Shown here: positions 26,560 to 30,616 of the stretch, in pieces
Position numbering within the stretch: the stretch's first letter is position 1
How the letters are laid out: each line of letters opens with the position of its first letter
From: a virus
Length of the DNA: 31,332 nt
Direction: 5' to 3' (one strand)
Virus record (IMG/VR): IMGVR_UViG_3300042474_000379
Coordinates: 1 to 31,332 of that record
Notes under the pieces: model-generated
Told to the model about the DNA's origin: nothing
Databases searched by the model: none
What the model saw: only the letters and a program-made list of their open reading frames with translations
Position numbers and translations under genes: made by a program

Positions 26560-26972
26560 TCCCCACCTCCAATACCGTGTGCTTTTTCTATTGCTCTAGC
26601 TATATAAAAAACTTGCCATACCGATACATTATCGAAATCAGGGTGAGCATGAATTGAATTACTTAAATCTCGCAGTCTTTCATCACTCAAAGGCTCACGT
26701 TTCAATTCTAGCTCTGCTTGTGCATAACCCTCTTGGTAAAAAACTCGATTGCTTTTAACCTGCCTCATTAACTCTTCACCTGTAACATCTGATATTGGCG
26801 ATTCTATTGCAGCTTTCATTCGTTCTAAATCAAAGTTAAATTCAGGCTCTTGCTCAGGTTGGGCAAGACATTCTTTTATATCATTAAACAAACTGACCAC
26901 ATCTTCTTCTGTGTTAAGTTCAGTCATAAATCTCTTAAGTAGTTCTCTTTCACGGCTTACACGTTCTGCCAT
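26556..26972 (-). CDS. Conserved-type phage protein of unknown function
   Basis: 138 residues, acidic and helical. The C-terminal third (EPLSDERLRDLSNSIHAH, then VWQVFYIARAIEKAHGIGGG) carries the 'EPLSDEqi...faRAiEkaHGI' pattern seen in many small phage proteins. The central part may be a spacer of phage-specific origin. The function is unknown. GAGGTG lies five bases before the ATG, inside the 3' end of the HNH gene, which it overlaps by 16 bases. Confidence 0.7.
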   Translation of the reverse strand: MAERVSRERELLKRFMTELNTEEDVVSLFNDIKECLAQPEQEPEFNFDLERMKAAIESPISDVTGEELMRQVKSNRVFYQEGYAQAELELKREPLSDERLRDLSNSIHAHPDFDNVSVWQVFYIARAIEKAHGIGGGE

Positions 26973-27499
26973 GTCGCACCTCTTTTAATAAAGCTAATTG
27001 TGCTTTGTGTAACTCCGTAAATTTTTGCTATCTGATTTTGAGACATACCATCTGTTAATAGGTTTTTTATTTCCTTAACTATGCTTGGTGTTAGTTTTGC
27101 AGATGCTGGTAACCCGTCTATTTTCCGCATAACTATGCCACTCCATTTTCTTCCTTTGTCTTGCATATCCTTCATATTTTCTTTATGCGTTCCTAAAAAT
27201 AAATGAGATGGGTTTACACATGAAGGAACATCGCATTTATGACAAACACATAAACCTTTAGGGATATCGCCATTGTGCAATTCGTAAGAAAATCTGTGCA
27301 TGGTATATCCGTTATACACACCATAACCTCCACACCTTACATTGCTAACCTTTCCTACCCATAACCAACAACCAGACTCAGTTACAGGAATAACTCTTTC
27401 ATAAAAAGCTGATTCATTAGGTTTTTTGGGTACTCTTTGCTTATCATAAATTGCTTTTAAATACTTTTTGTTTTTGACATCCTCTTTCTCAATGCTCAT
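26957..27499 (-). CDS. HNH endonuclease with C-terminal helix-turn-helix (homing-type)
   Basis: Likely a free-standing homing endonuclease of 180 residues. The HNH core shows C86-H87-x-x-C89, C94, N96-P-x-H99 and H105-x-x-N108 in VCHKCDVPSCVNPSHLFLGT plus HKENMKDMQ. The preceding HRFSYELHNGDIPKG is typical of HNH_3-type enzymes. Residues about 148-175 (TDGMSQNQIAKIYGVTQSTI) form a helix-turn-helix for DNA binding. ATG 27499 is chosen because GAGG precedes it at nine bases; a TTG upstream lacks a site. It overlaps both neighbours, so it is embedded in, not dropped between, the operon genes. Confidence 0.88.
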   Translation of the reverse strand: MSIEKEDVKNKKYLKAIYDKQRVPKKPNESAFYERVIPVTESGCWLWVGKVSNVRCGGYGVYNGYTMHRFSYELHNGDIPKGLCVCHKCDVPSCVNPSHLFLGTHKENMKDMQDKGRKWSGIVMRKIDGLPASAKLTPSIVKEIKNLLTDGMSQNQIAKIYGVTQSTISFIKRGATWQNV

Positions 27500-27692
27500 A
27501 ATAATTGCCTCGAAAATCAATAAAAAGGTCACATTCAAGTTGGTTCAGTTCTTTTTTAAAGTCACCATGCCACATGTAGTCCTTAGTATCCACCTCAATA
27601 CTTAAGTATCGGGAGCAGTTTTCTTTCTTTTCGCAGTTGCTACCTAAGCAACGTGCGTTTTCATCAGATAAAGGCCGTATCATTTTCTTCAT
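27489..27692 (-). CDS. Small cysteine-containing phage protein, unknown function
   Basis: 67 residues from ATG 27692, which has a GGAG site seven bases upstream; longer versions starting further up are less likely. The N-terminal half has CLGSNCEKKENCSRYL, a C-x5-C-x5-C cluster that may bind metal and is common in small phage proteins with an 'RPLSDeNaRC...C...C.RY' layout. The rest is acidic (FKKELNQLECDLFIDF). The function is unknown. It overlaps the HNH gene start by 11 bases and the HTH gene before it. Confidence 0.6.
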   Translation of the reverse strand: MKKMIRPLSDENARCLGSNCEKKENCSRYLSIEVDTKDYMWHGDFKKELNQLECDLFIDFRGNYYEH

Positions 27693-27939
27693 AATAATCT
27701 CCAAGTTCAATGTAATCCCCAACATAGGGTGGTGCTTCACCTAGTGCTTTACGGTAATAGTCTTGCAATGCCATTCCTTCCCATCCATCATGCCAGCCAA
27801 TCGGTACAGGTTTAATTTCTTGTTTAACATTAGATAACGAGCTTACCGCTGTGCCTGTAACTTTTGATATACTAGCTAAGGTGTAGCCTCTGCTATAAAG
27901 CACTTGCAATATGAGGGCGTAGTCAACATCCCTAGCCAT
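27664..27939 (-). CDS. Helix-turn-helix DNA-binding protein
   Basis: 91 residues from ATG 27939 (AAGGA site upstream); a GTG at 27954 is a less likely start. Residues about 19-40 (YTLASISKVTGTAVSSLSNV) fit a Cro/XRE-type helix-turn-helix. The C-terminal half is a Trp/Tyr-rich tail (GWHDGWEGMALQDYYRKAL). It may regulate the early operon or act in replication initiation. No catalytic motif is present. It overlaps both neighbours by a few bases. Confidence 0.6.
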   Translation of the reverse strand: MARDVDYALILQVLYSRGYTLASISKVTGTAVSSLSNVKQEIKPVPIGWHDGWEGMALQDYYRKALGEAPPYVGDYIELGDYYEENDTAFI

Positions 27940-28393
27940 TATTAATCCTTCCACCTAACTGTTTACGTCTTAATTCATCACAATACAACTCCATGTCTTT
28001 ACTGCGACGCATGAACTCAACTATTGAAGCTGCCATTCCAGTTAATTTGATCGGAGGACGGTTATACATGAACGCACAAACTTCTCTGATATATGGAAGC
28101 CAATCCATGATCTCGGCTCGGTTGAATAGAATTGATCCGTCAATATGAGTTGCCACATGCTTAGGCATACAATAGCGAGGGTCTTTCACGATCTTATCAA
28201 GCATCAATGCTTTAATACCGATTAAAGCCATTATTTCTTTTTTGGTAATGCTTTTTTGAGGTACTGGAGGGATTACAACATTAGCTTTTAAACGATCCAT
28301 TTTGCGTTTCAGCATAACACGTTCATGTATGGCTTTTTTATTCTTATGATAATACTCAAGGCATCTTTTTCGTTGTTTATCTCGTTGATTCAT
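27932..28393 (-). CDS. AlpA/MerR-like DNA-binding protein (putative)
   Basis: 153 residues with a basic N-terminus (residues 1-37, rich in K and R). Residues about 49-100 (ITKKEIMALIGIKALMLDKI, ending FNRAEIMDWLPYI) have the shape of an AlpA/excisionase winged helix-turn-helix: a helix-turn-helix followed by an 'R-x-x-E-I-x-x-W' helix. The C-terminal part is helical. It probably binds DNA as a regulator or accessory factor. The start is ATG 28393 with GGAG about ten bases upstream. It overlaps the DUF3310 gene by 17 bases. Confidence 0.55.
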   Translation of the reverse strand: MNQRDKQRKRCLEYYHKNKKAIHERVMLKRKMDRLKANVVIPPVPQKSITKKEIMALIGIKALMLDKIVKDPRYCMPKHVATHIDGSILFNRAEIMDWLPYIREVCAFMYNRPPIKLTGMAASIVEFMRRSKDMELYCDELRRKQLGGRINNG

Positions 28394-28589
28394 TGTATTC
28401 AAGCTCCAAGATTAGTTCACAGTAGTGTATGATTTTCTTTATATCTTCTGCGCCATTCTTGCTTCGATGGCGCGTAATGTACTTTATTATGTTACCTTCC
28501 ATAAACGGTATATTGTTAGCATGGATGTAAGTAACGGGTTGGATCGGTAATAAGTAGTGCTTACCTCCAACCATCTTTTTGTCGGGCAT
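28377..28589 (-). CDS. DUF3310 family protein
   Basis: 70 residues with the full family signature: GGKHYLLPIQPVTYIHANN, then FMEGNIIKYITRHRSKNG and AEDIKKIIHYCELILELE. DUF3310 proteins are common in phage early regions. They have sometimes been grouped with nucleotide-kinase-like proteins, but the biochemical role is not settled. A GGAG site lies eight bases before ATG 28589. It is followed by an overlap with the AlpA-like gene. Confidence 0.92.
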   Translation of the reverse strand: MPDKKMVGGKHYLLPIQPVTYIHANNIPFMEGNIIKYITRHRSKNGAEDIKKIIHYCELILELEYNESTR

Positions 28590-28814: not shown

Positions 28815-28897
28815 AAGTTAATGATGGCCAGCGGTAGCATGACCGTTAAAATTACTAAACATATAATCAATCTAATTAAATATGTAATCCCAAACAT
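28793..28897 (-). CDS. Possible 34-residue single-span membrane peptide
   Basis: This frame reads MFGITYLIRLIICLVILTVM then LPLAIINLWVTKWK, an almost continuous membrane helix flanked by basic residues. It exactly fills the 61-base gap between the VRR-NUC and 62-residue genes, overlapping each by about 20 bases as its neighbours do. The ribosome-binding site is weak. Hydrophobic frames can arise by chance in AT-rich DNA, so confidence is limited. If real, it may modify the host membrane early in infection. Confidence 0.4.
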   Translation of the reverse strand: MFGITYLIRLIICLVILTVMLPLAIINLWVTKWK

Positions 28898-29163
28898 TCT
28901 ATTGCCCAATTATCAATCTGTTCTATTGTCCAAAGACATGCGTAGTTTTGGTTAAGCCTTATCATTTCTTGTGCAAATAGTTTTTGTAATTCTGATAATC
29001 TACCCTCTTTTGTTTTTAATTCGACGAACCAGCACGAGCCGTCCGACATGCAAGCAATTCTATCTGCTACGCCTCGATGGGCAGGCGAAGTAAATTTATA
29101 CGTCTTTCCTCCGTTCACTTCAACCACCCATTTAAAATATTTTTCAATGTCACGTTCTAGCAT
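28876..29163 (-). CDS. VRR-NUC domain nuclease
   Basis: A stand-alone VRR-NUC (PD-(D/E)XK superfamily) of 95 residues, a family that cleaves branched or Holliday-type DNA. The active site is visible: E7 on the first helix, RGVADRI (D34), FVELKT (E48, K50) and Q60 in LSELQKLFAQEM. Phages use such nucleases for recombination or debranching before packaging. The start lies immediately next to the upstream stop with AAGGGA ahead of it. The full catalytic set is intact. Confidence 0.93.
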   Translation of the reverse strand: MLERDIEKYFKWVVEVNGGKTYKFTSPAHRGVADRIACMSDGSCWFVELKTKEGRLSELQKLFAQEMIRLNQNYACLWTIEQIDNWAIECLGLHI

Positions 29164-29379
29164 TTAATCCCTTGGAGTTACAAAGCTTGGAACGTTACCA
29201 GGTAATTCCAACACCTGATATATTTGTTCCTCGCCTTTTAAATTTTTTTGAATAATGAATGATCCGCTGCGAGTTTTGTGGATTACACTAGATTCATTAT
29301 TAGAAAGTTTATTAATAGCTAATCCTCCAGAAATAAAAGAAATTGCTGCTGCTATTGCGATCATTGTATTTTTGTTCAT
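29164..29379 (-). CDS. First gene of the leftward early operon: small membrane-anchored protein
   Basis: 71 residues from ATG 29379: a hydrophobic N-terminal helix (MIAIAAAISFISGGLAINKL) then a polar domain (HKTRSGSFIIQKNLKGEEQI). Another in-frame ATG at 29433 would put the ribosome-binding region TGGAA inside the coding sequence and remove the conserved leader, so 29379 is preferred. The helix suggests a signal anchor with the rest in the periplasm. As the first early leftward product it could be a superinfection-exclusion or host-takeover protein; this is inference. Confidence 0.6.
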   Translation of the reverse strand: MNKNTMIAIAAAISFISGGLAINKLSNNESSVIHKTRSGSFIIQKNLKGEEQIYQVLELPGNVPSFVTPRD

Positions 29380-29383
29380 TTGA

Positions 29384-29490
29384 GTATTCCAGTTTCGTTT
29401 AGTGAGGTTATAGCTTATCACTGTAAAAAACATTTGTACAATATATTTTTTTGTGAAATAATATATTCACTTTAAACGAAACGGGAATAC
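29384..29490. repeat. Mirrored 18-bp leader repeat in the divergent early control region
   Basis: GTATTCCAGTTTCGTTTA (29384-29401) and TAAACGAAACGGGAATAC (29473-29490) form an inverted repeat matching at 17 of 18 positions and separated by 71 bases. Each arm ends four bases before a start codon (29379 leftward, 29495 rightward). Both mRNAs therefore carry nearly the same leader, TAAACGAAAC-N-GGAATAC-N4-ATG, which contains the GGAA ribosome-binding core. GTGA follows each arm inward, offset by two bases. Confidence 0.9.
29402..29472. promoter_or_regulatory. Divergent early promoter/operator region
   Basis: Very AT-rich core between the two mirrored leaders. Two GTGA...TCAC dyads lie at 29402-29421 and 29453-29470, with centres 50 bases apart. 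A perfect TTGTACAA palindrome lies at 29434-29441, and AATATATT occurs twice exactly 20 bases apart (29440 and 29460). For rightward transcription, TTGTAC (29434) with TAATAT (29459) is a weak -35/-10 pair with a 19-base spacer. For leftward transcription a TATAAC can be seen, but no -35 is well spaced. Control by a repressor or a phage-specific factor is inferred. Confidence 0.55.
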
Positions 29491-29494
29491 ATTA

Positions 29495-30616
29495 ATGGCA
29501 CACTCAAAGATTGTTGGCGGTTCGACTGCTAAAAGGGTAATCAACTGCCCAGGCTCAGTCAAACTGTGTAATGAAGCGCCTGAAAAGCCTTCATCTTCTT
29601 ACGCTGACGAGGGTACACTTCTTCATAATACCATTGCTGAATATTTAGATATTGGTACAAAGCCTGTAATCGGCGCACAATATCAAGATGTTATACTGAC
29701 ACAAGATTTAATTGATGAAAAAATTCATGCCGCACTGGAGTTATTGAATGAAGTTGATTCAGGATATTTTATGGACTATGAAATCGAAGTTGAAGTTAAT
29801 TTCGGTGATTTCATGCCTGACGTATTTGGCAGCTGCGATTTGCTTGGTCGTATACATGATCGTGCTATTGTCTTGGATTGGAAGTTTGGCAATGGCGTTA
29901 TCGTAGAAGCAAAAGAAAATGAGCAGTTGATGTTCTACGCTGCTGCTGCGATGCGTACTGAAAAAGCCAAATGGGCATTTAAAGACGTAAAAGAAGTCGA
30001 GCTAATCATTATCCAACCTCCGATGATTAAACGTTGGGTAACATCAATAGAACGCATTAAAGCATTTGAACAACAGCTTTTAAGTGCCGTTAAAGCATCT
30101 CAAAAACTTGATGCTCCTCTTCGGGAAGGTAGCCATTGTAAATGGTGTGCAGCTAAACCTACCTGCCCATTAATGACAGGTGCAGTTGAACGTGCATTAA
30201 AAGTTAAGGTTGATGCGATAGACGCACCAACTATAGATGCGTATCTTCAGAACGCTGAGATTTTAGAAGAATGGATAAAAGACTTGCGTGCTTTAGCATT
30301 TAACATGTTAGAATCAGGTCGTGATTTACCAAATTACAAACTGGTTGCTAAACGGGCAACCCGTAAATGGTCAGATGAAGTAGAAGCTAAACAAGCTTTA
30401 CTTGATGCTGGCTTAACAGAATCTGATGTGATGGAAGCATCGTTTATTTCTCCTGCTCAGGCTGAAAAGAAGCTCAAGAAGCTTAAACAGCCTTTACCAG
30501 AAGGGTCAACCGTTTCTATTTCATCGGGTAACACAATGGCACATGTAGACGATCCTCGTCCTGCTGTGCTGTTAATTGGGCATCAGTTGTCTGCTGCTCT
30601 TACTAAACTTCAATAA
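29495..30616 (+). CDS. DUF2800 / Cas4-like PD-(D/E)XK nuclease with Fe-S cysteines
   Basis: 373 residues, RecB/Cas4-type nuclease fold. Visible motifs are GTLLH (G40-H44), GSCDL (D115), LDWKFG (D128-x-K130) and EQLMFYA (QxxxY motif). The C-terminal C215-x2-C218-x5-C224 cluster, with an N-terminal cysteine (C18 or C25), matches the four cysteines that bind Fe-S in Cas4/AddB-type enzymes. It probably trims 5' or 3' DNA ends in phage replication or recombination. The start is preceded by the mirrored GGAA leader. It heads the rightward early operon, with a putative polymerase downstream. Confidence 0.9.
   Translation: MAHSKIVGGSTAKRVINCPGSVKLCNEAPEKPSSSYADEGTLLHNTIAEYLDIGTKPVIGAQYQDVILTQDLIDEKIHAALELLNEVDSGYFMDYEIEVEVNFGDFMPDVFGSCDLLGRIHDRAIVLDWKFGNGVIVEAKENEQLMFYAAAAMRTEKAKWAFKDVKEVELIIIQPPMIKRWVTSIERIKAFEQQLLSAVKASQKLDAPLREGSHCKWCAAKPTCPLMTGAVERALKVKVDAIDAPTIDAYLQNAEILEEWIKDLRALAFNMLESGRDLPNYKLVAKRATRKWSDEVEAKQALLDAGLTESDVMEASFISPAQAEKKLKKLKQPLPEGSTVSISSGNTMAHVDDPRPAVLLIGHQLSAALTKLQ

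Follow-up and report, generated by a model that had tools for sequence, protein, structure and literature searches.

Mirrored leaders of a predicted divergent promoter region stay nearly constant while first genes change among close relatives of a presumed podovirus-like phage

In the gene 0.3 region of phage T7, early anti-restriction genes stand first behind host promoters. In Aca-controlled acr operons, a small winged-helix regulator gene adjoins early counter-defence genes and a compact inverted repeat lies between the −35 and the −10. In archaeal viruses, conserved early regulatory sequences precede anti-defence genes and are proposed to be repressed by a winged-helix protein (PMC11065993). 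Bacterial bidirectional promoters, finally, share a −10 and have divergent starts about 10–23 bp apart (PMC12825309).

Among published ideas the one on archaeal viruses (PMC11065993) comes closest to the locus described here, in that the promoter-bearing sequence is constant and the genes behind it are diverse, anti-defence genes included. In the archaeal viruses, however, the sequence precedes many separate genes at the genome ends, with one copy each, whereas here a single divergent pair of operons has two mirrored copies; moreover, we are presumably dealing with a phage of bacteria, the constant part includes a predicted transcribed leader, and early timing is likewise a prediction. As in the bidirectional promoters (PMC12825309), symmetry sets the divergent starts so near to each other that RNA polymerases should exclude one another, but in our case it is an overlapping −35 that is shared, the −10s are separate and the predicted starts lie about 64–66 bp apart, which places the locus outside that definition. 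A gene for a small candidate regulator, its winged helix predicted with low confidence, would adjoin presumed early counter-defence genes as in the Aca-controlled operons, but the arms described below are not a compact repeat of that kind. Finally, a presumed first-entry operon would open with an exchangeable gene of anti-restriction type as it does in the T7 region, except that here two divergent operons have one common leader text.

The window (the whole stretch of DNA analysed, a record of 31,332 nt) is a viral fragment of 31.3 kb with a P22-like portal, and its source is presumably a podovirus-like phage of bacteria. A plus-strand block of large genes reaches ~24.2 kb, a minus-strand operon begins at 29.4 kb and runs down to 24.3 kb, and the rest of the window from 29.5 kb is taken up by an operon on the plus strand. 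The 115 bp of intergenic DNA between these left (minus) and right (plus) operons holds both arms of an inverted repeat. The left operon opens with a 71-aa peptide having a hydrophobic N-terminus (29164..29379, minus strand), which is swapped or missing in relatives, followed by a 95-aa endonuclease-like protein of phrog_93 (28876..29163, minus strand); it also encodes a 156-aa protein with a predicted MerR/excisionase-like winged helix, our candidate regulator (27932..28402, minus strand). First in the right operon is a 373-aa DUF2800 / PD-(D/E)XK exonuclease-like protein (29495..30616, plus strand). Promoter anatomy and gene content suggest that both operons are early and that the arms are transcribed. 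The left operon of the window also contains, at 26957–27538, a gene for an HNH endonuclease with a C-terminal helix-turn-helix, which is seen in only a few close relatives and is probably a mobile insertion.

The left leader copy, TAAACGAAACTGGAATAC (29384..29401, minus strand), contains a Shine-Dalgarno-like GGA and is followed by TCAA and then by the ATG at 29379. The right copy, TAAACGAAACGGGAATAC (29473..29490, plus strand), is followed by ATTA and the ATG at 29495, giving a 4-nt gap on either side. The two 18-bp arms are identical at 17 of 18 positions and their sole mismatch directly precedes GGAATAC. Inspection of the sequence and alignment of both arms bear out exactly what the sequence-only reading had described, namely the 17/18 match, the equal register to each ATG and the mismatch just before the GGAA core. 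When up to three mismatches were allowed, the arm pattern had only two sites in the window, which are the arms themselves (chance expectation 0.09); the search for further copies proposed in that reading therefore returned none in the window at this threshold. When the 115 bp of intergenic DNA were dinucleotide-shuffled 5000 times, no inverted 18-mer match scored above 16, and among the window's 30 start sites the arm pair is an outlier, with 17/18 vs ≤11/18 for every other pair. What relatives have in common is TAAACG(AAACG)n, where n is 0 to 2, ahead of a Shine-Dalgarno-like GGA/GAG; symmetry over the full 18 bp is in part peculiar to the window genome. Both leaders are unstructured according to predicted RNA folding (0 kcal/mol). 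A single arm by itself is not palindromic, and since each mRNA would contain one copy in the same sense, the arms do not pair with each other within either transcript.

The arms are the flanks of a more extensive mirror-symmetric element. Their midpoint, 29437, falls within the palindrome TTGTACAA (29434..29441), which is the mirror centre and can be read as two overlapping −35 hexamers: TTGTAC at 29434–29439 on the plus strand and at 29441–29436 on the minus strand, with four bases common to both. The presumed right −10, AATAAT (29457..29462, plus strand), lies 17 bp from its −35 and was chosen by a consensus scan too. Its presumed left counterpart, TAAGCT (29412..29417, minus strand), lies 18 bp from its −35 and is of the extended type, with TGA ahead as the end of the spacer; it is a weak match, with 3/6 consensus bases, and was missed by the consensus scan. 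Both strands thus carry a sigma-70 arrangement with −35 and −10 separated by 16–18 bp, TTGTAC-17-AATAAT on the plus strand and TTGTAC-18-TAAGCT on the minus strand. From this anatomy transcription is predicted to start near A29469 on the right and near 29405–29403 on the left, at the edge of each arm that faces the palindrome. The A lies seven bases past the right −10 and the leader ACTTTAAACGAAACGGGAATACATTAATG comes next; the left-side counterpart of this text is (TC)ACTAAACGAAACTGGAATACTCAAATG. Overlap of the −35 boxes should exclude the simultaneous fit of two RNA polymerases. The arms are equally distant from their start codons because both sides follow one common plan, with a shared −35, similar spacing, the same leader and the same Shine-Dalgarno position. 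An inverted duplication of the whole promoter was also considered; its halves align barely above shuffles (23 of 2000 were as good) and we make no claim of this kind.

Relatives were collected via a DUF2800 protein search plus DNA-pattern searches. The promoter-leader block is present in all relatives of at least 84% protein identity that have upstream sequence, and the arm-to-arm spacing is constant among close relatives; in L011 and L021 an inserted gene sets the block at a greater distance upstream. Scanning with the promoter core, a search blind to leaders, returned 32 contigs, 32/32 with leaders on both sides, and neither the protein-based nor the core-based search, both leader-independent, found a leaderless member of the close clade. 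Across 22 equal-length haplotypes 1 of the 20 leader columns is variable, an invariance that is partly selected since these haplotypes were chosen by a pattern naming the leader ends. None of the −10 and central columns varies in the same set, ATTTGTACAAT being invariant, vs 11/12 columns in the 6-bp segments that separate each −10 from its leader and 74/93 four-fold sites of the DUF2800 gene (leaders vs four-fold sites, Fisher P 3e-10, uncorrected for relatedness). The TSS-proximal CACTAAACGA is nearly invariant, and in a 23rd haplotype (L031) AAACT replaces AAACG in the right leader. This contrast in column variation indicates that the leaders are constrained in their own right, apart from the promoter hexamers. 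The constraint (1/20 vs 74/93) and the promoter anatomy together support the proposal of the sequence-only reading that the arms are 5′ leaders in equivalent positions.

Behind the leaders, genes are swapped among relatives. The first left gene encodes a 69–72-aa membrane peptide in 11 haplotypes, and the extra first left gene is missing in 8 haplotypes, where the endonuclease-like gene is directly next; in relatives of this kind the phrog_93 gene stands directly behind a shortened left leader. Elsewhere the position is taken by a methyltransferase of phrog_757 (L006 and L014), a C5-cytosine methyltransferase (L013), Mom (L026) or a 70-aa protein (L016). On the right side, an 82-aa gene in L011 and a DruA/Mom-like gene in L021 precede DUF2800. 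Discounting the peptide, four of the six slot genes (the phrog_757 methyltransferase, the C5 methyltransferase, Mom and the DruA/Mom-like gene) have DNA-modification or anti-restriction relatives. Since the leader text stays while the first genes change, the leader belongs to the promoter and not to one gene.

Three smaller observations concern these genes. The DruA/Mom-like frame behind the right leader of L021 (5387–7104) reads stop-free into DUF2800 for 564 aa, which may reflect either a gene fusion or a pair of starts that overlap. The 69–72-aa peptides (window, L008, L012, L020, L121) are conserved towards the C-terminus, VIHKTxSGxFII...IYQVLEL, and differ in the hydrophobic N-terminus, as though recombination had replaced the first half. 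In a subset of relatives that does not include the window, CCTCACTAAACTTCAATAAGG or a near-match reappears where the DUF2800 gene ends, just upstream of the next ATG (L013:3087, L018:7107, L019:7092 and others); it codes for the last DUF2800 residues and the stop, and its recurrence may be chance.

The left leader has one AAACG unit in L010, two in the window and three in L020. In L121 the left leader is intact and the right one is cut to a single unit, TAAACGGAGA. L159 keeps the palindrome and a single unit on the right, and its left leader is without TAAACGA and reads CTCACTCAAAAAAGG. In a group of ~58% identity the motif is found on the right side only, where CTCACTAAAC is constant at the same distance behind the right −10 and the ribosome-binding text and first gene differ. 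The central palindrome, TTTGTACAA/TTTGCACAA, is more deeply persistent than the arms. The sequence-only reading had proposed that the arms would let one factor control both operons, a view left unsupported by L159, L121 and the ~58% group, all of which break the pairing. Loss of one arm with retention of the genes, which that reading had itself named as evidence against it, is seen outside the closest clade in L159, and the compensating changes in both arms that it suggested looking for are not there: no change between the two arms in relatives is compensatory. Judged from these sequences, strict two-arm control is contradicted by the relatives, and any control by a single factor is putative.

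The best reading of these data, and one we consider reasonably probable, is that the region is a divergent promoter-leader cassette behind which first genes can be exchanged. Two sigma-70-type promoters would stand back to back, their overlapping −35 boxes inside a common palindrome, and both transcripts would have one short, unstructured leader in common, ACU(UU)AAACGAAAC, then the Shine-Dalgarno-like GGA/GAG and then ATG. Whichever gene stands first would receive from the leader both the opening bases of its transcript and its ribosome-binding region, and the two operons would thereby receive matched start signals. First genes of DNA-modification or anti-restriction type could then be exchanged without rebuilding the expression signals and would be expressed at once. 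The left copy was probably derived from a right-type leader, because in most of the distant relatives the left gene has almost no leader; this direction of copying is based on a few distant groups rather than a rooted tree. The left leader of L026 bears right-type text through the start codon, GAGAATACATTAATGGC, the same as in the right leader of L030, which would fit occasional exchange between the arms, short of proof. Any Shine-Dalgarno match is short, and the right leader of L021 is without one. Since the conservation of AAACGAAAC exceeds a plain ribosome-binding need, an added function at the DNA or RNA level is likely. More tentatively, the mirrored leaders could be a docking site for counter-defence genes, leader homology allowing a new first gene to enter by recombination on the left or the right of one fixed divergent promoter, with immediate expression, an idea that we regard as possible rather than probable.

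In a rival account the arms are operators, with a phage DNA-binding protein binding both leaders or the palindrome and shutting both operons after the early phase, in the manner of Aca proteins at acr operons. We think this rather unlikely as an account of the arms, which are not palindromic singly, may shrink to one unit or vanish and, on the left, range from 1 to 3 units. The most plausible binding candidate would be the 156-aa protein from the left operon, with its predicted winged helix. Its predicted fold is MerR/excisionase-like with topology b-a-a-b-b-a, although confidence in the model is low (pLDDT 62), and its best structural matches are RacA (prob 0.98), BldC (0.92) and MerR-type regulators, all of them weak with no E below 0.04. 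All 48 loci in which the protein occurs belong to the leader-bearing clade, and L121 carries a 26%-identical homologue, but this co-occurrence is clade-wide and little proof because other clade genes, e.g. p62, behave likewise. The almost invariant TSS-proximal text would also suit an operator, and L121 has a near-palindrome of 13+13 bp (26 bp) centred on TTGTACAA that would make a better operator than the arms do. A regulator common to both operons may exist. At the RNA level, a phage or host protein or a small RNA might recognise AAACGAAAC in both mRNAs and co-set translation of the first genes. Both mRNAs have the same sequence in the same strand sense and at the same distance from the start codon, and the leader is single-stranded; yet there is neither a compensatory pattern nor structure, and the two-unit text is dispensable in some relatives, and we judge such control improbable. 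No Rfam family reaches threshold for the region, the only answers being two plant miRNA models, far below cut-off, that respond to the long inverted repeat.

We hold it highly improbable that the arms are a recent accident, that is, an inverted duplication or a gene conversion that is new and has no function. The repeat units do grow and contract, and within-genome arm similarity slightly exceeds that of permuted pairs (P about 0.02, uncorrected for phylogeny), but the constraint is strong across 23 haplotypes whose synonymous sites are well mixed. The permutation result, like the L026 left leader, fits occasional exchange between the arms, short of proof. Scarcely credible, in our view, is that the arms are late or middle promoters for a T7-like phage RNA polymerase. 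The left element TAACCTCACTAAACG does resemble the T3 promoter, CCTCACTAAA, with a ten-base identity to its core. However, the bases ahead of CTCACT are freely variable, the motif does not occur elsewhere more often than chance would give, whereas a phage promoter would have many copies over the genome, and a single-subunit RNA polymerase (PF00940) is absent in nine relatives of 37–42 kb, on which this search rests since the window is a fragment (the T7 control was positive). A T7/T3-like promoter was dropped on the last two grounds. Free-standing CACTAAACGAAACNNGA in other viruses, beyond the clade, L119 and L121, has unrelated contexts with no promoter and looks like chance. The sole match in a search of genome contigs, in Sedimenticola, has no promoter context, is due to chance and was rejected as a host link.

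If the region is indeed a divergent promoter-leader cassette, a short recognisable sequence would mark the first-gene exchange slot of environmental podovirus-like phages. The uncharacterised first genes of the slot would be anti-restriction candidates and, if the docking-site idea holds, the promoter-leader text could be used to find more of them. The main interest lies in the leader as a marker of a slot where first genes, many of them for DNA modification, are exchanged; the locus would also be a natural case of two divergent promoters competing for one −35 region, with equal leaders.

In the distant groups, of 58% and 63% identity, the left gene is predicted to begin at or nearly at the transcript start. 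In the 63% group (L034, L036 and relatives) the left endonuclease-like gene starts ~7 bases past a TATACT −10, and its mRNA may be leaderless. In the 58% group (L060, L059, L148) the divergent promoter has two direct copies of TTGCAAACTTTT and a palindrome, TTTGCAAA, which look like regulator sites.
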